Shown in pieces: positions 2,098 to 16,498 of a stretch of 16,498 nt of DNA. How positions within the stretch are numbered: position 1 is the first letter of the stretch; every line of letters begins with the position of its first letter. Source of the stretch: Candidatus Zixiibacteriota bacterium (lineage in GTDB: Bacteria; SM23-81). The stretch is taken from the NCBI GenBank assembly GCA_030628225.1, contig DAOVRJ010000019.1, forward strand, positions 1 to 16,498, written 5' to 3'. The notes below the pieces were generated by a model. That model ran no database searches. It saw only the letters and a program-made list of their open reading frames with translations, and was not told the DNA's origin. Made by a program: the position numbers and the translations under genes.

Positions 2098-3942
2098 TTA
2101 TTTCTTACCAAAAAACCGCGCTCTTTTAGTTAACAAGACCATATCTCTTAAATAATGGATATTCTCCGCGTTAAGCCAATTTTTCTCAAAATCCTTTTCC
2201 TGAACGAGAGTGGCTATAGAAGCTAAGGTTTTCAAATGAAATGCTCTATCTTCTTTTGTCCCAACAAAAACAAATACCGCCTTTACCGAACTTTCCTTAG
2301 CGGTGAATCTTATACCCTTTTTGCATCGGACAAGCATTAAGAAAAAGAGATTGCTTCTATCAATAATGATATGAGGAAGAGCAACAAAACGTGAAATTGC
2401 AGTGTTACAATCTTCCTGTCTGTTTTTTAGCAACGAAAGAATCTCATTCTTATTGATGTTAATCTCCTCAGAAATGTTTTCGGAAACAATCTTAAAAAAG
2501 TCATCCAATTCCAATGGACCCTCTATGTCTAGAATTTTCGCATCTTTAACTAATAAATCGAATTTATCATGTTTAATATTATTCCTATCACATAAAATGT
2601 CTCTTAACTCAGTTTCTAAAAGATGCTCTGTTAATCTTGAGTCTGTTATTCTTTTAAGCAGATGCAAGAGGGCATATTCACCTTCAAATTTTCTCCTCCC
2701 GTAAAACAGATAGCAAGCCACGCTCAACATAAGAAAAGATAAGCTAATTTCTATAGCCTCAAAACCTAAATCTATTACAAAAAAGGCAAAGATAACAATC
2801 CCAAGTATTTGTAGCCAAGGATATAGGGGAGTTTTAAAGCTGGGTCTATAATGTTTAAGTTTGCTTTCTCTTAAGATAATGACAGAGATGTTCGTTAGCA
2901 CGTATGAAGTTAAGATCACGGCGGATGCTGCTTTTACTAACATTTCCAAAGGCAGTAATAATGCAATAATAATGAACGCTCCGGTAATGCTGATTGAGAT
3001 CACTGGCGTTCTGAATTTTTTATGTACTTTACCGATACTGTGAGGTACAAGACTATCTCTGCTTAAAGCCAAAGGGTAACGCGATGCGGACATTATCCCG
3101 GCATTTGCAGTCGTGATAAAAGCCAATAAAGCGGCTATTGATATGGCAATAAAACCGGGTGTTCCCATGAAGATCTTTGCAGAATCCATTATCGGTGTGA
3201 GTGAATTGGCAAATGATACAGAATCTAAAATTCCAACCGTTGCGATAAGTAACAAAGTATATAATACTGTAACTATGCCCACTGAAGCAAGCATCCCCAA
3301 AGGAATATTCCTTTGGGGATTTTTAATTTCCTCGGACATGCTTGCTATTTTCAGTAAACCACCAAAAGATATGAAGATAAAACCTGCTGTGACAAAGATA
3401 GGATTGATTCCTTTGGGTGCAAAAGGTTTAAAATGTGAGGCGTTGATCTTGGGTAGTCCGAGAACAACATATAATGCCATCAGGATCAGCAGACCCATTA
3501 CAAGAAAAACCTGGAATCTCGCAGCTGTCTTCACTCCGATCATATTCAAGAATACGAAGCAAAGGCAGATTATAATTGAGGCAAATATCACTGGTGTTCC
3601 TGTGGCCAAGAAGATTATCTCTGATATGCCAAATATTGCAAAGGCGCTTTTAAGCGATAAAGCTGCCCAGCCTAAGAAACCTGATACGGTTCCGACTAAA
3701 GGGCCTAAGCTTCTATTAATAAAATAGTAATCGCCGCCTGCCTTAGGCATTGCAGTAGATAGTTCAATGACGCTCATAATACCCACTATGGCAAGCAATC
3801 CCGCGAGAAAATATGAAACGATCACTGAAGGACCAGTCCGAGAAAAGGCAAACCCGGGCAATATAAAAATACCAGAACTTATCATTGCTCCGGTTGCAAT
3901 ACAGAATACATCAAGGAAAGTTAACCTTTTTTTCAATTCCAT
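2098..3942 (-). CDS. APC-superfamily amino acid permease with C-terminal PTS EIIA-like domain
   Basis: This is an inner-membrane transporter, probably for amino acids. ATG 3942 is chosen because TAGGTG lies 6 bases upstream; GTG 3951 would add three residues and is the origin of the numbering here (617 aa). Residues 12-415 hold about 12 hydrophobic segments. TM1 carries the APC motif TGAMISSGIFILPG (20-33), followed by ELSTAMPKAGGDYYFINR (63-80), also characteristic of APC permeases. Residues 430-610 resemble the EIIA(Fru/Ntr) fold: ALPHIIID places His527 where the phosphorylated His of EIIA sits, and AFHLKTLASIATLV follows the EIIA pattern. Such fusions are known in many bacteria; here the domain could be regulatory rather than phosphotransferring, since the usual 'IPHG' glycine is replaced by Ile. 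The gene is clearly AT-richer than those on its right, which suggests transfer. Its upstream region is the baeRF remnant. Confidence 0.88.
   Translation of the reverse strand: MELKKRLTFLDVFCIATGAMISSGIFILPGFAFSRTGPSVIVSYFLAGLLAIVGIMSVIELSTAMPKAGGDYYFINRSLGPLVGTVSGFLGWAALSLKSAFAIFGISEIIFLATGTPVIFASIIICLCFVFLNMIGVKTAARFQVFLVMGLLILMALYVVLGLPKINASHFKPFAPKGINPIFVTAGFIFISFGGLLKIASMSEEIKNPQRNIPLGMLASVGIVTVLYTLLLIATVGILDSVSFANSLTPIMDSAKIFMGTPGFIAISIAALLAFITTANAGIMSASRYPLALSRDSLVPHSIGKVHKKFRTPVISISITGAFIIIALLLPLEMLVKAASAVILTSYVLTNISVIILRESKLKHYRPSFKTPLYPWLQILGIVIFAFFVIDLGFEAIEISLSFLMLSVACYLFYGRRKFEGEYALLHLLKRITDSRLTEHLLETELRDILCDRNNIKHDKFDLLVKDAKILDIEGPLELDDFFKIVSENISEEININKNEILSLLKNRQEDCNTAISRFVALPHIIIDRSNLFFLMLVRCKKGIRFTAKESSVKAVFVFVGTKEDRAFHLKTLASIATLVQEKDFEKNWLNAENIHYLRDMVLLTKRARFFGKK
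3293..3320. repeat. 28-bp perfect palindrome inside the permease gene
   Basis: The half-site ATCCCCAAAGGAAT is followed immediately by its exact reverse complement. It lies in the coding sequence of the permease, where the minus strand reads NPQRNIPLGM (about residues 211-220), the conserved loop after EEIKNP. On the plus strand it is followed by TTTTTAATTT, which makes it terminator-like for antisense transcription. Confidence 0.75.
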
Positions 3943-3951
3943 TATCGGCAC

Positions 3952-4273
3952 CTACGGTTTTTCCGTAACTGCTACCTTTATTGGGACTATCAGTAATATT
4001 ACCCCTGACATGCGATAGCGCAACAGGCAACCAACGCCGCCGAGCTGCATCAGAAAGTCGCTGTGCTCTACGACCTCGGTATAGCAACTGTTGCGTTCGG
4101 CCATTCTGACCATCTCTTCTTTAGATGTCAAGGCTTCTTACTTCTTTGCTTCCACATTCAGGACAAACCTTTTTAACAGCGCGATTCGAGCCTATTGCCT
4201 CGCATTCCGGGCATGACCATCCCGGACCAGGATTGTACGATTTGGCTAACACAAGCACATCCTGTCCATCCAT
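3952..4273 (-). pseudogene. Frameshifted C-terminal remnant of a bacterial eRF1-like (baeRF-type) protein
   Basis: Two consecutive minus-strand frames read as one protein end. From ATG 4273 to TAA 4123-4121 (50 aa) the product reads MDGQDVLVLAKSYNP, then a zinc-ribbon-like WSCPECEAIG and VCPECGSKEVRSLD. A +1 shift at the stop continues SKEEMVRMAERNS...VVEH, then DFLMQLGGVGCLLRYRM, and ends at TAG 3954-3952. The order 'VLVL-K-Y--GW-CP-C / CP-CG / helix / LGG(I/V)G-LLRYR' is that of the third (C-terminal) domain of archaeal aRF1 and bacterial eRF1-like proteins. The N-terminal two domains, usually 250 or more residues, are absent. The sequence upstream turns directly into an array of 7-base words at 4274, so the break lies at the array edge. 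A sequencing error could explain the frameshift but not the missing front. Confidence 0.6.
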
Positions 4274-4308
4274 TTTGCAATTTTCACTTTACATTTTTCA
4301 CTTTTCAT
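4274..4308. repeat. Array of 7-base words (TTTTCAC type)
   Basis: Five consecutive heptamers in perfect register: TTTGCAA, TTTTCAC, TTTACAT, TTTTCAC, TTTTCAT. The reverse complements (GTGAAAA, ATGAAAA and similar) are the words of the array at 8472-8499. It begins exactly where the baeRF remnant loses its upstream part. No gene is visible between it and the octamer array at 4509; the intervening roughly 200 bases hold nothing I recognise. Confidence 0.65.
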
Positions 4309-4508
4309 TGCGATATTCGAAGAATGTCGCTCAGGACCGCCGGTCGTGCTCACGGACGCCGAACGTAAATCGATGATCCTACGGTCGTAGAATCCCCAGT
4401 TCACGCACAGGACCGCGAACACGACGGACGGTTAATGTGAGCAACAAAGGGTTCAAGGGGTCAGGAATCGAGTGGCCCCCGTTCACCACCCCTCTGAACA
4501 CCTTAAGG

Positions 4509-4572
4509 TTTTCCCCTTGAATCCTAGAATCCTTGGATCCTCGAATCCTATCTTTTCCGAATCCTCAACCCC
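4509..4572. repeat. Array of 8-base words (nnGAATCC type)
   Basis: Eight consecutive octamers: TTTTCCCC, TTGAATCC, TAGAATCC, TTGGATCC, TCGAATCC, TATCTTTT, CCGAATCC, TCAACCCC. Five fit nnGRATCC exactly. The array lies just downstream of the aldehyde dehydrogenase stop, in a gap without a gene, and is flanked on the left by related text (GGGTTCAAGGGGTCAGGAATCGAG at about 4450-4473, split by the register). No recognisable terminator hairpin for the dehydrogenase is visible besides this region. Confidence 0.65.
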
Positions 4573-6269: not shown

Positions 6270-8270
6270 TCACTTTGTGCGCAGGCGAACCAGTTTCCCG
6301 CGCATGATATCGGCATCAGTGACCACCTGATAGATGTAGATCCCATCGGCCACTTCCTCCCCGGATTCATTATCTCCATGCCATTCGATCTCACATCTGC
6401 CCCCCAGCTCCCAGAACAGCTCCCGCTCCCATACCCGCTCGCCGGCAAGAGTGAAGATGCTCACCTTCACCAGCCCGGGAGCGTTAAAAACGATGGTGGT
6501 GCTCTCCGAAAAGGGGTTGGGAAAGTTGTACAGACCAACGAGAGGTATGGGCTGTAGTTCGATGGTCAAGCTGTTCTGCCAGCTGGGGATCTGAATGTCG
6601 GAGATTTCCCGGGCAAGATAGCCGGAAGCTGTTACCTGAAAATCATGGTGCCCCGGGCTGAGATCATGGATGGCGAACCTCCCGGAAGCACTGGTCTTAA
6701 CCGAACCGACCGAGGCGCCGGCCAGGGATCGCCCGGACACAGCATCCACAACCTGCCCGAAGATACTGTAATTGGCCTGGCGGGCGACCTGGGCGTCGAT
6801 TACTCCCCAGCCGGAGGAGTTATTCGGATCCAGAGCCCGGTAGGCGGTATTCCGCAGGGCATCTGCGACCTGATTCGGGGTCATGGTGGAATCGGCCTGC
6901 AGTAGCAAAGCGGCTACGCCGGCCGTCAGAGGAGTGGACAGGGATGTGCCCACGCTCCGGTAATACCCGTGGGGATCGTCAGGATTTGCCACGTACGTGT
7001 TCTGCCCGCAGGCCATCACATCGGGCTTGATGCGGCCATCGTAGGTGGGTCCCAGGGAGCTGAAGTCAGCCCGGGTACCGGTGGTATCCACTGCCCCCAC
7101 GGCGATGACCTGCTCACCATCGGCAGGAGCGATGATGTACCGCCAATAGGAGTTGCCCTCGTTGCCGGCGGCGGTGACCACCACCACCCCCCGGGAGGCG
7201 GCCAGATCGGCGGCCACGGTGGTCACTGCCGTGCTGCCATCCATATCCTCGTACTCGTACCAGTCCATGTAGCCCAGGGAACTGCTGACCACATCGGCCC
7301 CCAGACCCTCCGCCCACTCGATGCCCTCCACCCAGTAATCCTCCTCGATGGGCTGCTCGCTGGAGATATCCTCGGTCTTGCCCAGCAGAAATGAGGCCCC
7401 AAAAGCCGGGCCGATAAGCTGCCCCGGGCAATACCCCCCGATGAGGGACAACACCACCGTCCCGTGAGAATCCTGTCCGGGCGGATCCCCGGTTTCGTCA
7501 ACCACTACATCGTCGTCGTTGATGAAATCCCGCTCAGCTATGATATTCACATGTTGGAGAGTTTCGTGGGCCAGGTCGAATCCGGTGTCCAGCAGGCAGA
7601 TTCGCACGTCCTCCCCGGGTGAGCCAAGGTCGTTTTCCTCCAGCCACTGGTGGAATTGGGGCACAGCGATCTGATAGAGCTGCGCGTAGGAAGGGCCGTA
7701 ATCAAGAACAAGCCGCCTGCTGATGGACGGTCCGACCGGGCCAACCTCCTGGAAGACCAATTCCCGCCGGCGGCCACCGGCCACCAGGCGCAGGGAACTG
7801 ATGAAGGGAAACTGCCGCAACCGGGAGATCTGATCCCCCCGGGCCCGGACGCTGATGGCGTTCAGCCACCGGGATTGTGCTCTCAACGTGACGCCTGTGT
7901 CCAGAACCTCCTGGATATATGGCCGGTGCAGGGGCAAATCTGCTAAGTCCACCAGATTCTCCCGGTCTCTCACCTTCAGTCTGCGAAAGCGGGCGTGAGG
8001 GTTGAGCTCTTTCCGCTGATACTCAATAGCCCTGCGGTAAGCTCCATCGTCGAAAACCCCCTTGTCGGTGAAGAAGAGCCATACATCGATGCTTTCTCCG
8101 GGAGTTTTCCCATTCAGAACGACCTGGAGACGAGAACCAATCTTAGGCCTCTGGAGAGGACTCGCCAGATCTGATCGGATCTGACCCCAAGCAGACGTAA
8201 GGGCACCCAACATCAGGACTGCCAGGACTGGACCCATTCCTTTTCGGATGATGGAATTCGATGTGTTCAT
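6270..8270 (-). CDS. Secreted subtilisin-family (S8) serine peptidase with C-terminal sorting-type domain
   Basis: An exported endopeptidase of 666 residues. A signal peptide (about 1-29, hydrophobic GPVLAVLMLGALTSAWG) is followed by an N-terminal prodomain-like region (45-165, containing WLFFTDKG). The S8 domain spans about 215-500, with the triad Asp228 (CLLDTGFD), His269 (DSHGTVV) and Ser443 (GTSLSTP), and the oxyanion Asn370 (AAGNEGN). A carboxypeptidase-regulatory-like beta-sandwich (502-572, IFGQVVDAVSGRSLAGA) comes next. Residues 578-666 form a FlgD_ig / type-A sorting-like domain beginning YNFPNPFSESTTI. In FCB bacteria such C-termini are associated with type IX secretion; export through that route is inferred. 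All catalytic residues are present. It has its own promoter at 8332-8360; the ribosome binding site is weak (GAG about 7 bases upstream). Confidence 0.93.
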   Translation of the reverse strand: MNTSNSIIRKGMGPVLAVLMLGALTSAWGQIRSDLASPLQRPKIGSRLQVVLNGKTPGESIDVWLFFTDKGVFDDGAYRRAIEYQRKELNPHARFRRLKVRDRENLVDLADLPLHRPYIQEVLDTGVTLRAQSRWLNAISVRARGDQISRLRQFPFISSLRLVAGGRRRELVFQEVGPVGPSISRRLVLDYGPSYAQLYQIAVPQFHQWLEENDLGSPGEDVRICLLDTGFDLAHETLQHVNIIAERDFINDDDVVVDETGDPPGQDSHGTVVLSLIGGYCPGQLIGPAFGASFLLGKTEDISSEQPIEEDYWVEGIEWAEGLGADVVSSSLGYMDWYEYEDMDGSTAVTTVAADLAASRGVVVVTAAGNEGNSYWRYIIAPADGEQVIAVGAVDTTGTRADFSSLGPTYDGRIKPDVMACGQNTYVANPDDPHGYYRSVGTSLSTPLTAGVAALLLQADSTMTPNQVADALRNTAYRALDPNNSSGWGVIDAQVARQANYSIFGQVVDAVSGRSLAGASVGSVKTSASGRFAIHDLSPGHHDFQVTASGYLAREISDIQIPSWQNSLTIELQPIPLVGLYNFPNPFSESTTIVFNAPGLVKVSIFTLAGERVWERELFWELGGRCEIEWHGDNESGEEVADGIYIYQVVTDADIMRGKLVRLRTK

Positions 8271-8331: not shown

Positions 8332-8360
8332 AATTTACCATTTTGCTGTGAACAGGTCAA
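8332..8360 (-). promoter_or_regulatory. Sigma70-like promoter of the S8 peptidase gene
   Basis: On the minus strand, TTGACC (8360-8355), 17 bases, TAAATT (8337-8332). The predicted start near 8325 leaves a leader of about 55 bases before the ATG at 8270. The spacer ends AAAATGG, similar to the TAAAATGGTAG found at the GEVED and C25 promoters. Confidence 0.55.
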
Positions 8361-8413
8361 CCCCTTTTTTGCAGTCCTTTTGCGTCGGAAGGTTGGTGTT
8401 ATGGGCAGATGTT

Positions 8414-8460
8414 GTAGGCAGTCAGAAGTAGGCAGGAGACAGTGGGGGCAGTGAGCAGTA
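8414..8460. repeat. Array of 7-base words (GTAGGCA type)
   Basis: Words: GTAGGCA, GTCAGAA, GTAGGCA, GGAGACA, GTGGGGGCA (two bases longer), GTGAGCA, GTA. Most start GT and end CA. Read on the other strand this is the TGCCTAC / TGCTCAC style. It is the first block of the word mosaic lying between the S8 promoter and the GEVED terminator. Confidence 0.6.
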
Positions 8461-8471
8461 AGGGAAAAGAA

Positions 8472-8507
8472 ATGAAAAATGCAAAGTGAAAAGTGCAAAA
8501 TGTGAAA
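8472..8507. repeat. Array of 7-base words (GTGAAAA/GTGCAAA type)
   Basis: Four heptamers in perfect register, ATGAAAA, ATGCAAA, GTGAAAA, GTGCAAA, then an 8-base ATGTGAAA. It shares GTGAAAA and ATGAAAA with the array at 4274-4308, which lies in the opposite orientation about 4.2 kb away. Confidence 0.65.
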
Positions 8508-8529
8508 GTCACTGATCTGTGCTTTTCCC

Positions 8530-8596
8530 GATTCCCGAATCCCGAACCCCGGTCCCCGGCGGTCTCACGAATCTCGACTCTCGATTCTCGAACCTC
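8530..8596. repeat. Two-block array of 7-base words (GAxTCCC then GAxTCTC)
   Basis: Block one: GATTCCC, GAATCCC, GAACCCC, GGTCCCC. An 11-base link GGCGGTCTCAC follows. Block two: GAATCTC, GACTCTC, GATTCTC, GAACCTC. The words vary at positions 3-4 while the frame of seven is kept, so this is not a simple slipped tandem repeat of one unit. Confidence 0.7.
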
Positions 8597-8605
8597 AGCC
8601 TTTCA

Positions 8606-8690
8606 CCAGGATCCAGGATCTGTCTCCACCTTAAACATCCGCAATCAGCAATCCGCGCCTTCCCACACTCCAACAAACCTCGCAAACCTC
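8606..8690. repeat. Further short word arrays (CCAGGAT, GCAATCC, CAAACCT types)
   Basis: Three small blocks follow one another: CCAGGAT twice (8606-8619, period 7); GCAATCA, GCAATCC after a partial CATCC (8636-8654, period 7); and CAAACCTCG, CAAACCTCC (8674-8691, period 9). No gene, promoter or hairpin explains them. They end directly against the GEVED terminator. Confidence 0.5.
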
Positions 8691-8691
8691 C

Positions 8692-8727
8692 AAAAAAAGA
8701 GCCGCCGGTCATCACGACCGGCGGCTC
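8692..8727 (-). terminator. Rho-independent terminator of the GEVED protein gene
   Basis: A perfect 12-bp stem (GAGCCGCCGGTC at 8699-8710 pairing with 8716-8727) with a 5-base loop. On the minus strand it is followed by seven T residues (A-run at 8692-8698). It lies 24 bases past the stop of the gene at 8752. Confidence 0.92.
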
Positions 8728-8751: not shown

Positions 8752-10719
8752 TTACTTCATGAACACCATCTTGGTCGTGGCGCTGAACTCACCCGCCTTC
8801 AGGGTACTGAAGTACACGCCGCTGGCCACCAATTTGCCATCAGCATCCATGCCGTTCCAGGTCACCTGGTAAGTATTGGCGCTCTGATGGGAATCAACCA
8901 GGGTCCTGACCTCCTCGCCCACAATGTTGAAGATCTTCAGGCTAACCTGCGAATCCTGGGGAATCGCATAGCTGATGATCGTCTGAGCGTTGAACGGGTT
9001 CGGATAGTTCTGGGACAGAGCAAACTCTGTGGGCAACTGAGTGGTAGCCTGTGGGGTTACGGTGATGGGACCATGAGCGGTGCACGTGCCAGCCAGATCC
9101 ACATCCATAACCTTGTAGCTGTACGTCACCCCGTTGACCAGACCCTTATCCGTGTAACTGTATTCATGACGCGTCTCGCTGGTGCCCTGGCCGGGAACAA
9201 GTGTCTCATTCACCCGCACATACTCGGAGCCATCCTGGCTGCGCAGAAGATAGAAGCCCAGGTTGTTGACCTCGCTCTCGGTGGTCCAGTACAGAGTGGC
9301 CTGAGCGTCGCCCGCCGAGGCGTAGAAGGTGGACAGACCAACGCTCAGCGGATGACCAAGTTTGTAGTCCTCCACCTCGCCATATGGAAGCTCTCCGAAG
9401 TACTCGTTATAGGTCATGCCGTATGCGAGTCGGAATCTGGTCCACATATCATTATTAGTGGCCCATTCGGGAACCGGAAAAGTGACGTTATAGGTCCAGA
9501 AATCCTGTCCCCAAGCGCTTGCATCTGCCGAGAACATACAGCACACATTTTCCATGTCGTCGTCCCAGTCCCCATCTTGGTTCCAATCGAACCAGGCATC
9601 GAGATATAACAGCTTAAACATATTAGAGCTATATCGACCCGAATTCCATTGCGTAACAGACATCTCGACGTCCACGCTTCCCGTTTCGCCCGGCACATAC
9701 GGCGTGTTAAAGGTGACCCCGTCGTCAAAGAGGTCAAGATCCACCTGCCTGGAGTTGAACTCCAGGTCGATGTAATCGGGGGGGGGGCCTGGGTCATTGC
9801 CCAACCATTCGAGAACTCCATCAGAGTTGATGTGGCGTGCACCGTTGCTTTCGTACAACGACGGATAATTGGGATCCGGAGCATCGCCGTAGTCGGCGTA
9901 ATCGCCGTAGAACCAGGACAGGATTCTGCTCATCAGCTCACCCTTGGTGTTGTCCGTTCCCACCGAGTCCTTTAGGGCGGCGAAGCAGATAGTGGTGAAG
10001 AAGACCCTGGGGCCCGCGTACTTATCCCCCGCTTTCCACGACAGAGCGGCATATCCGGCGCCGGCCAAATCATTGATGTAAAACTCTCCATTGATCAACT
10101 GCTTTCCAGGTATGGGCACGATCCAGTCGATGAAAAGGCCGTCCTTGCCGGCAAAAGGATCCTCTAGCTGGAAGGTAAGCCCATCGGTGATGGCCTGGGG
10201 ATTCGGACCTAACGCGATGTGGTCGGTTCCCAGCCATATATCCGTGGAACAGGCAGACACCTTCAGGCAGTCGTAGCGAAAAGTCCCCGGGAGGTAAGTC
10301 CCCTGGGGGTAATAGCTGAGATAATCTTGAGCGCTGAGGAACAGCTTGCCGCCCTGATCCAGATAAGCTCTCAGTTCCGTCTCATCGCCTGCTGTGATAC
10401 AGTTTGGCCAGGTGCAGCAGGTCTCTCCGTTGAACCAGATTACCACTTCGTAATCATCCAATTTATACCGATCCGGACCATCATCATTGGTCAGAACCTC
10501 GTAGACCTCGTACTGTCCCCGCATGGTGGCGTTAGCAACCTCCACAAGGCCGGCTTCCTCAAGGGCAGCCGTGAAGATAGGATGAATATCCGTGTATGGC
10601 CCCCAGCAACTGCCATCGTCGTCCACCAGCAGGAGGCCGCCACCCATCTGTGCCCAGGCGAACTGGGCCACTAAAACAGAAAGAACCAGTGTTCCCAACA
10701 CAATAGCTAATTTCCTCAT
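8752..10719 (-). CDS. Secreted multidomain surface protein: GEVED domain, Fn3 and C-terminal FlgD_ig sorting module
   Basis: An exported protein of 655 residues with no recognised enzyme motif. A signal peptide (1-23, ending QFAWA) precedes an N-terminal region (28-270) beginning LLLVDDDGS and containing YEVVIWFNGE and LDQGGKLFLSAQDY. That pattern suggests a glutamine-amidotransferase-like/ThuA-like fold used as a binding domain. Residues 274-455 form a GEVED domain, from YADYGDAPDP to the name-giving GEVEDY (447-452), with Asp-rich metal-binding-like loops (FDWNQDGDWDDD). An Fn3-like domain (465-556) and a FlgD_ig/type-A sorting-like module (562-655, NYPNPFN at 571-577) follow. The start at ATG 10719 has a strong AAGGAGG site 9 bases upstream. 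Promoter and terminator are both clear, so it is a single-gene unit diverging from the C25 protease. A ten-C run within codons about 311-314 (PPP) could slip. Its role is probably adhesion or extracellular structure. Confidence 0.88.
   Translation of the reverse strand: MRKLAIVLGTLVLSVLVAQFAWAQMGGGLLLVDDDGSCWGPYTDIHPIFTAALEEAGLVEVANATMRGQYEVYEVLTNDDGPDRYKLDDYEVVIWFNGETCCTWPNCITAGDETELRAYLDQGGKLFLSAQDYLSYYPQGTYLPGTFRYDCLKVSACSTDIWLGTDHIALGPNPQAITDGLTFQLEDPFAGKDGLFIDWIVPIPGKQLINGEFYINDLAGAGYAALSWKAGDKYAGPRVFFTTICFAALKDSVGTDNTKGELMSRILSWFYGDYADYGDAPDPNYPSLYESNGARHINSDGVLEWLGNDPGPPPDYIDLEFNSRQVDLDLFDDGVTFNTPYVPGETGSVDVEMSVTQWNSGRYSSNMFKLLYLDAWFDWNQDGDWDDDMENVCCMFSADASAWGQDFWTYNVTFPVPEWATNNDMWTRFRLAYGMTYNEYFGELPYGEVEDYKLGHPLSVGLSTFYASAGDAQATLYWTTESEVNNLGFYLLRSQDGSEYVRVNETLVPGQGTSETRHEYSYTDKGLVNGVTYSYKVMDVDLAGTCTAHGPITVTPQATTQLPTEFALSQNYPNPFNAQTIISYAIPQDSQVSLKIFNIVGEEVRTLVDSHQSANTYQVTWNGMDADGKLVASGVYFSTLKAGEFSATTKMVFMK
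9778..9787. repeat. Ten-base G:C homopolymer inside the GEVED domain
   Basis: Ten consecutive G residues on the plus strand read as C10 in the coding strand and encode GPPPD. The run keeps the frame open in this copy; gain or loss of one base would truncate the protein before its GEVED motif, Fn3 domain and sorting module. Confidence 0.85.
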
Positions 10720-16029: not shown

Positions 16030-16498
16030 CTACCTGATCAAGACCATCTTCATGGTCTGGCTGAACTCTCCAGCCTGCATGGTGCAGAAATAGATACCAG
16101 CAGAAACCTCAACGCCTCGGGAATCCCTGGCATTCCAGGTCGCCGTGTAGTATCCGGCCTGCAGATCAGCATCCATCAGAGAAACAACCTCCTGGCCCCT
16201 CACATTGTAGATCTTCAGGACCACCCGGCTGTCCTCGGGGATCTGGTACTTGATCTCGGTGTTGGGATTGAACGGGTTGGGATAGTTCTGAGACAGCACA
16301 AAGGCCGTCGGCAGCACGGCCGTCGGAGTGGCCGACACAACCGCATCGTGCATCTCGACGTTGCCGCCAAAATCAACGGCGGCGACCTGATAGTAATAGG
16401 TCACTCCGTTGACCAGACCTCTGTCCACGTAAGTGTACGAATGAGCATCCTCAGAACTGCCGGCTCCGGAGATCCGCTCGGCGTTGACCTTGACGAAA
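16030..16498 (-). CDS. Partial secreted protein: Fn3 plus C-terminal FlgD_ig sorting module
   Basis: The frame is open to the right edge; only the last 155 residues are visible. A GTG at 16428 is in frame but is inside an Fn3-like domain (FVKVNAERISG ... YVDRGLVNGVTYYYQVAAVD), so it is not the start. The last 90 or so residues form the FlgD_ig / type-A sorting-like module (LSQNYPNPFNPNTEIKY ... TMKMVLIR). Fn3 and sorting module together align by eye along their whole length with the end of the GEVED protein, including YxDxGLVNGVTY and LSQNYPNPFN, which marks them as paralogous C-termini. The functional part lies outside the window, so enzyme or adhesin cannot be decided. Confidence 0.85.
   Translation of the reverse strand, partial: FVKVNAERISGAGSSEDAHSYTYVDRGLVNGVTYYYQVAAVDFGGNVEMHDAVVSATPTAVLPTAFVLSQNYPNPFNPNTEIKYQIPEDSRVVLKIYNVRGQEVVSLMDADLQAGYYTATWNARDSRGVEVSAGIYFCTMQAGEFSQTMKMVLIR

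Follow-up and report, generated by a model that had tools for sequence, protein, structure and literature searches.

The window is the whole stretch of 16,498 nucleotides that was analysed; it belongs to the 2.34-Mb genome G000, a fragmented assembly of 306 contigs. An S8 peptidase gene and a GEVED-domain gene lie in it on the reverse strand, and the gap between them contains an island of seven-base words at 8414-8691. The genome is compared herein with a genome of the same family (G001) and two of the same phylum (G002 and G003). Arrays were placed by Tandem Repeats Finder (TRF) and regular-expression (regex) scans; gene calls are the longest ORFs. The features are:

4269-4322, plus strand: second island, a pyrimidine-rich (Y) arm of word A with the hairpin GCGATATTCGAAGAATGTCGC, one half of an 'A ... 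a' hairpin element
4515-4565, plus strand: octamer family CCTTGAATCCTAGAATCC, a dispersed repeat common to G001 (34 bases at 97%, several copies)
6270-8270, minus strand: S8 peptidase gene
8332-8360, minus strand: promoter-like site of the S8 peptidase gene, a consensus match only (9/12)
8418-8461, plus strand: module D, GTAGGCA/GCAGNNR heptamers, 4 + 2 units, purine-rich; outer portion of the left, purine-rich (R) arm
8471-8498, plus strand: module A, ARTGMAA heptamers, 4 units, the purine-rich inner R arm, with a degenerate continuation to about 8507
8499-8528, plus strand: linker joining the arms, GTGAAAGTCACTGATCTGTGCTTTTCCC, with the switch from purine-rich to pyrimidine-rich; homologous linkers occur in subfamilies elsewhere
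8529-8549, plus strand: module B1, CCCGAAT heptamers, opening the Y arm
8568-8595, plus strand: module B2, CGANTCT heptamers (CTCGAAT register), 4 units, by TRF and regex
8606-8620, plus strand: module C, CCAGGAT heptamers, with a CTTTNAC junction just before it at about 8599-8605
8642-8655, plus strand: module F, CAATCNG heptamers, 2 units
8674-8694, plus strand: weak stretch of period 9, CAAACCTC (score 33)
8699-8727, minus strand: intrinsic terminator of the GEVED-domain gene (13 pairs, 10 of them G-C, T7 tail)
8752-10719, minus strand: GEVED-domain gene, encoding a protein with a secretion tail

Across 8414-8691, the identity at lag 7 is 0.531, compared with 0.256±0.027 in 1000 dinucleotide shuffles (maximum 0.362), and no shuffle exceeds 0.367 at any lag from 3 to 30. 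The mosaic of seven-base words that a first-pass annotation had described is thus real: five or six words adjoin within 280 bases, and shuffled sequence does not give equal scores. The arrays of period 7 stand, whereas the stretch of period 9 is weak. The slot also is as it had been described, with the GEVED terminator on one side and the S8 promoter-like site on the other.

The purine fraction is 0.7-0.82 over 8410-8489 and 0.33-0.42 over 8510-8669. R arm and Y arm are built from different words, so the island is not a clean inverted pair. When the island is folded as single-stranded RNA, neither strand outperforms its shuffles (z -0.03 and 0.55), which speaks against a whole-island hairpin. 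No strong G+C hairpin with a T run lies inside the island, the only strong terminator (8699-8727) being outside. The island holds no ORF of the family PF05635, and the contig of the window gives no match to it. A search of the region against Rfam gave no match above gathering scores, and no orthologue of the S8-GEVED gap was found in G001.

The 'A ... a' elements, to which the half element at 4269-4322 belongs, have G+C hairpins at their borders (GCGGCACCTAATGGTGCCGC and GCGACCTTCGAAGAAGGTCGT, for example), and these hairpins make up a second structured repeat family (L004, L009, L266, L272, L277, L285, L286, L294, and L295). Coding sequence for a FlgD-like secretion tail (8752-9013 and 16031-16487) matches dozens of places in G001 and belongs to a large paralogous family.

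Heptamer islands across the genome

In an unbiased 111-kb sample of G000, the share of sequence covered by lag 7 is 6.0% in noncoding DNA but 0.24% in coding DNA. In the noncoding part of the same sample, lags 4-6 and 10-13 cover 0-0.5%, and lags 8 and 9 cover 1.35%, so that the excess of lag 7 extends to other intergenic regions. The sample holds ~12 islands, which extrapolates to ~250 in the genome. Noncoding cover by lag 7 is 3.45% in G001, 1.23% in G002, 0.87% in G003, and 1.29% across 40 unselected genomes.

Order and orientation of the modules are constant throughout G000, namely GCAGNNR, ARTGMAA, linker, CGANTCY, and ATCCAGN. Among neighbouring modules at 65 loci (289 kb, partly picked for holding word A, B, or C), A-B occurs 22 times versus 2 for B-A, D-A 9 versus 0, and B-C 10 versus 4; in 12 cases the module after A is A inverted. 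The linkers from A to B group into homologous subfamilies, and TTTTAC and TTTAAC precede B and C arrays. A 73-base piece of the window island (about 8548-8620) is 96% identical to a locus on another contig (L043, C130), where it lies in opposite orientation between different flanks. Fixed order, homologous linkers, and the relocated copy together indicate that the islands are copies of composite repeats and not independent collections of words. Hence, of the earlier proposal of an element or process that collects heptamers, the element is retained, and random collecting is not for G000 (A-B 22:2, D-A 9:0).

The words themselves are shared more widely. ARTGMAA in triple occurs 134 times in G000 and the reversed word 0 times; over 118 stretches from other phyla carry word A in five copies. 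Three copies occur in 19 of the 290 genomes searched versus 7 for the reversed word, and word C in 12 genomes versus 2. Module F's word, CAATCNG, also comes after an A array in a deltaproteobacterium (L097), and the B1 word is the opposite-strand form of GGGAATC, known from Xanthomonas. Word B as a universal word was rejected: among the 290 genomes it occurs in only two outside the family of the window, and its reversed-word control matches more. The composite pattern CGANTCY-CTTT-CCAGNAT is found only in the genome of the window and in none of 59 others, so the exact mosaic is local, though its words are shared.

Two syntenic regions of 74-79% identity allow orthologous slots to be compared (L030 in G000, L395 in G001). 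Slot 1 carries arrays in both genera, with the left array differing by 14 bases and the interior replaced. Slot 3 keeps its junction and polarity, but its word is A in G000 and D in G001. The composite of slot 2 is present in G000 only, the arrays of slot 4 in G001 only, and fourteen other orthologous gaps carry arrays in neither genome. The slot thus stays while words are replaced, which simple copying does not predict and which counts against the cassette reading developed below. In another orthologous gap (L028 at about 1360-1949, L252 at 2574-3138), G000 has a Y1_Tnp (RAYT-like) gene and G001 a PF05635 gene with heptamer arms; this gap is a common insertion hotspot.

The islands could be ordinary heptanucleotide microsatellites, born and resized by slippage in 7-base steps (the polymerase footprint idea), decaying by point mutation and spreading by recombination, with nothing mobile. 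Over-representation of heptamers and the slippage idea are already published (PMC4692102), and length does change by units: G000 and G001 differ by 14 bases where slot 1 begins on the left, and two Nostoc plasmids (L489 and L507) differ by one heptamer. In other genomes, units two apart are identical 253 times versus 211 in shuffles (A-scan loci L067-L184; a 14-base step), adjacent units being only slightly in excess. Microsatellites do not, however, predict a fixed module order, and adjacent identical units within arrays of G000 are fewer than in within-array shuffles (41 versus 50.9, P=0.023). We regard this explanation as unlikely. The idea that perfect repeats are unstable and neighbours differ for that reason was discarded, since the deficit of G000 is not reproduced in G001 or other genomes.

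Many contigs of G000 end in or near islands (C16, C39, C44, C83, C102, C137, C183, and C221), where the assembly seems to break, and runs of N adjoin heptamer arrays in G235 (C9 and C77).

Purine-to-pyrimidine polarity and gene context

Arrays follow a common polarity. In a blind test, arrays were called by lag 7 alone and assigned to purine or pyrimidine class by composition alone; pairs are neighbouring noncoding arrays within 150 bases with one vote per locus, other phyla and viral contigs included. With purine cut-offs of 0.57/0.43 that were fixed after the pattern was seen, and array settings also picked during the work, purine-rich precedes pyrimidine-rich in 74 of 80 loci and the reverse holds in 6 (P=5e-16). 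The rule holds for inverted pairs (58:3) and for different-word pairs (81:15). Array-free gaps show no such skew, and random window pairs of array-free noncoding DNA give 2336 versus 2236 (51%). Ordinary microsatellites do not predict this polarity.

By gene 3' ends, the arrays are purine-rich on the coding strand, and by 5' ends pyrimidine-rich; divergent gaps are unbiased. Rehm et al. described the same placement at gene ends, and the convergent pairing, for GGGAATC in Xanthomonas. The polarity rule reaches beyond that word to words unable to form G-quadruplexes. The G-quadruplex is ruled out as the common cause, since word A has no G runs, and the proposal that arrays replace canonical terminators was likewise dropped, terminator frequency being equal in gaps with and without arrays. 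The equal frequency, together with the many arrays that begin at a stop codon, also means that the transcriptionally quiet slot proposed by the first-pass annotation is not general; cyanobacterial arrays inside operons, described below, contradict it as well.

Functional barriers to transcription in both directions (acting as terminators, Rho-loading sites, or G-quadruplexes), selected for a purine-then-pyrimidine transcript on both strands, would account for a polarity that reads alike from either strand, for the purine-rich 3' ends, pyrimidine-rich 5' ends, and unbiased divergent gaps, and for the placement seen by Rehm et al.; some spacers between arms also fold better than shuffles. Against such barriers stand the equally common canonical terminators, the inability of word A to form a G-quadruplex, and the position of some arrays within operons, e.g., between cas10 and cmr3. 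In addition, the Rho spacing given in the literature puts 9-13 bases between YC, not 5. Selection for barriers is therefore distinctly improbable as an explanation of the islands.

PF05635 genes between heptamer arms

PF05635 (S23/23S rRNA-IVP) proteins crystallise as pentamers of four-helix bundles (PMC4990558) and are homologues of Avd, which serves diversity-generating retroelements as a cofactor (PMC10053308); a bAvd match is weak. In one slot of G001, inverted B arms enclose a PF05635 gene.

PF05635 genes are associated with heptamer arrays. An array counts as beside a gene if an array of 7-9-base units lies within 120 bases. Of 22 PF05635 genes, mostly from G001-G003 and two of them (L153 and L115) drawn from an array-selected set, 20 have arrays and 11 have them on both sides, compared with 39/161 and 4/161 control genes; these controls lie partly in the same loci, so the comparison is conservative. 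For an independent test, plasmid records were gathered solely through protein similarity, without regard to repeats. In this set, 15 of 16 PF05635 genes have arrays beside them and 12 of 16 on both sides, whereas size-matched genes on two Nostoc plasmids of the set give 9/43 and 0/43 (P=4e-7 and 2e-9). Among 12 genes on viral contigs, 10 have arrays, 5 of them on both sides.

The arms have the polarity of the islands: in the plasmid cassettes, the upstream arm is R rather than Y in 10:2 and the downstream arm Y rather than R in 13:3. Arms are inverted copies of each other in 17 of 20 cassettes, with a word that differs per cassette; L490 and L499 have direct arms instead. Cassettes lie within the gene pairs cas6-cas4 (twice) and cas10-cmr3 on plasmids of Pseudanabaena, Anabaena, and Picosynechococcus (L490, L495, and L496). 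Arrays flanking PF05635 genes on both sides are not what microsatellites predict.

The same arrangement is found with the words of the window. On contig C44 of G001, a decayed PF05635 gene has a D-A arm on one side and an inverted A arm on the other, and window positions 8480-8508 are 97% identical to the left arm beside this gene. The sole PF05635 gene of G000 sits between GGGGTTA and CCCTAATCCC words, and in another phylum (L153) an A arm, an intact PF05635 gene, and an inverted A arm follow each other. Two counts speak against the cassette reading: G000 has 1 PF05635 gene in 2.34 Mb versus ~250 islands (extrapolated), and the A-word islands of other phyla are mostly without the gene (2 PF05635 genes in 118 loci).

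One site is found in three states: filled, empty, and ORF-less. This is the TraM site of Nostoc plasmids, where L489 and L507 have a cassette and exactly one heptamer distinguishes their right arms. The site is vacant in L505 and L506, and in L513 it holds an ORF-less heptamer island. Site 2 is filled in L497 and empty in L491, L508, L509, and L510; the insert has TTCTA at both ends and the empty site has it once, a target duplication that is clean at this one site only. Site 5 is filled in L491, the other plasmid of the same strain, and empty in L508 and L509, the junction TAATG|GGATTT becoming TAATG-insert-TTATG|GGATTT. Filled and empty states are likewise seen at sites 3 (nrdB-nrdA) and 4 (integrase). 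In Aulosira, Trichormus, and Scytonema, the cassette alone is homologous (78-81% identity) and lies at other places. Insertion of a PF05635 gene into pre-existing arrays is ruled out at sites 2 and 5, where the empty sites have no array, and microsatellites do not predict empty sites without array remains. These comparisons of filled and empty sequences support well that the cassettes are mobile.

The islands could also be REP-like or MITE-like repeats moved by a Y1 (RAYT-type) or other transposase, with the heptamers as incidental filler and the PF05635 genes as passengers. G000 has four Y1_Tnp genes, one of which (C179) occupies a slot where G001 has a heptamer-armed PF05635 gene, and hairpins flank the 'A ... 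a' elements. However, inspection of the aligned islands by eye revealed no conserved palindrome bearing a tag of GTAG type, the ends of the islands vary in word, and the cassettes are without a transposase, which leaves only a slim chance for transposase-driven repeats of this type.

A proposed intervening-sequence-like cassette class

The window island probably belongs, as a composite without an ORF, to a class of mobile cassettes that resemble intervening sequences and have heptamer arms. Its assignment to the class is drawn from the match of its arm to that on C44 of G001, the words flanking the PF05635 gene of G000, the arrangement at L153, and the polarity rule. The reading as an element rests on copied islands with fixed order, common linkers, and polarity, and on comparable arrays that enter or leave sites together with the PF05635 gene. 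We infer that the island, in which the gene is absent, descends from a PF05635 cassette.

A complete cassette of this class consists of an R arm (a purine-rich array), one PF05635 gene read from R to Y, and a Y arm (a pyrimidine-rich array) that usually repeats the R-arm word in inverted form. Each cassette has its own word. Cassettes would insert into intergenic or intercistronic gaps, and gene-less copies would persist as bare R-to-Y islands and spread through segment copying, with arms lengthening and shortening by whole heptamers. The PF05635 protein, as an Avd-like pentamer, may act in movement or in arm synthesis, and a role in arm copying is possible. Pairing of the arms in DNA or RNA may matter, compare RNase III in rRNA intervening sequences (IVSs), and the 7-base step may reflect the machinery of the cassette together with replication slippage. 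A broader claim is tentative and, on balance, doubtful: that the PF05635 protein, without a transposase of its own, is responsible both for moving the cassette and for writing its copy-specific heptamer ends, that most bacterial heptanucleotide arrays are live, gene-less, or dead arms, and that the class is widespread.

Intervening sequences of 23S rRNA include short ORF-less forms. Those with an S23p/PF05635 ORF (Coxiella, Leptospira) are alike in placing the ORF between inverted-repeat arms without a transposase; they have been termed selfish, and their origin is unclear (PMC4990558). Unlike them, the elements described here are intergenic and not in rRNA (the window island has the S8 peptidase and GEVED genes as its neighbours and is not within a 23S rRNA gene), their arms are tandem heptamers with a word that changes per copy, and the copy in the window has no ORF.

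Among known heptamer repeats, GGGAATC and GGGGAYT of Xanthomonas and Nostoc (PMC4692102) share the B1 word, the intergenic location, the degeneracy, the often about four units, and the close convergent pairs. They were described as single G-quadruplex words and were not connected with PF05635, mobility, or other words, whereas the rule found here also takes in A/T-rich words and mixtures. Calothrix heptanucleotides are cited in the same work. The TAACTGA repeats of Beggiatoaceae (PMC4679880) are likewise dispersed seven-base direct repeats and occur in unrelated phyla, but they consist of one word, lie mostly just upstream of start codons with a proposed role in translational control, and include one inverted pair only. 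The heptanucleotide elements of Geobacter metallireducens (PMC2700814) form dispersed families of four or five heptamers, some classes being paired on opposite strands at variable distance; they differ in having been read as regulator-binding sites, with PF05635 left aside.

The window island also resembles another group of repeats in its tandem seven-base units in noncoding DNA. These are the cyanobacterial STRR, heptanucleotide arrays that the Nostoc group has in its noncoding DNA. An STRR site usually carries a single word, whereas the window island has five or six words within 280 bases. The contrast with STRR drawn by the first-pass annotation is weaker than thought, as arrays of Nostoc plasmids flank PF05635 genes, but the several words per island of G000 hold.

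Why heptamers are over-represented in bacteria and how 23S rRNA IVSs originated have each been noted as unexplained (PMC4692102, PMC4990558). No paper linking heptamer arrays to PF05635 cassettes was found in the open-access literature, although one may still exist. If the repeats are tied to IVS-like cassettes, both puzzles become testable, with the repeats as the ends of a mobile unit. PF05635, an Avd-related family with function unassigned, would gain a genomic partner, and the purine-to-pyrimidine rule provides a simple prediction that can be checked in any genome.
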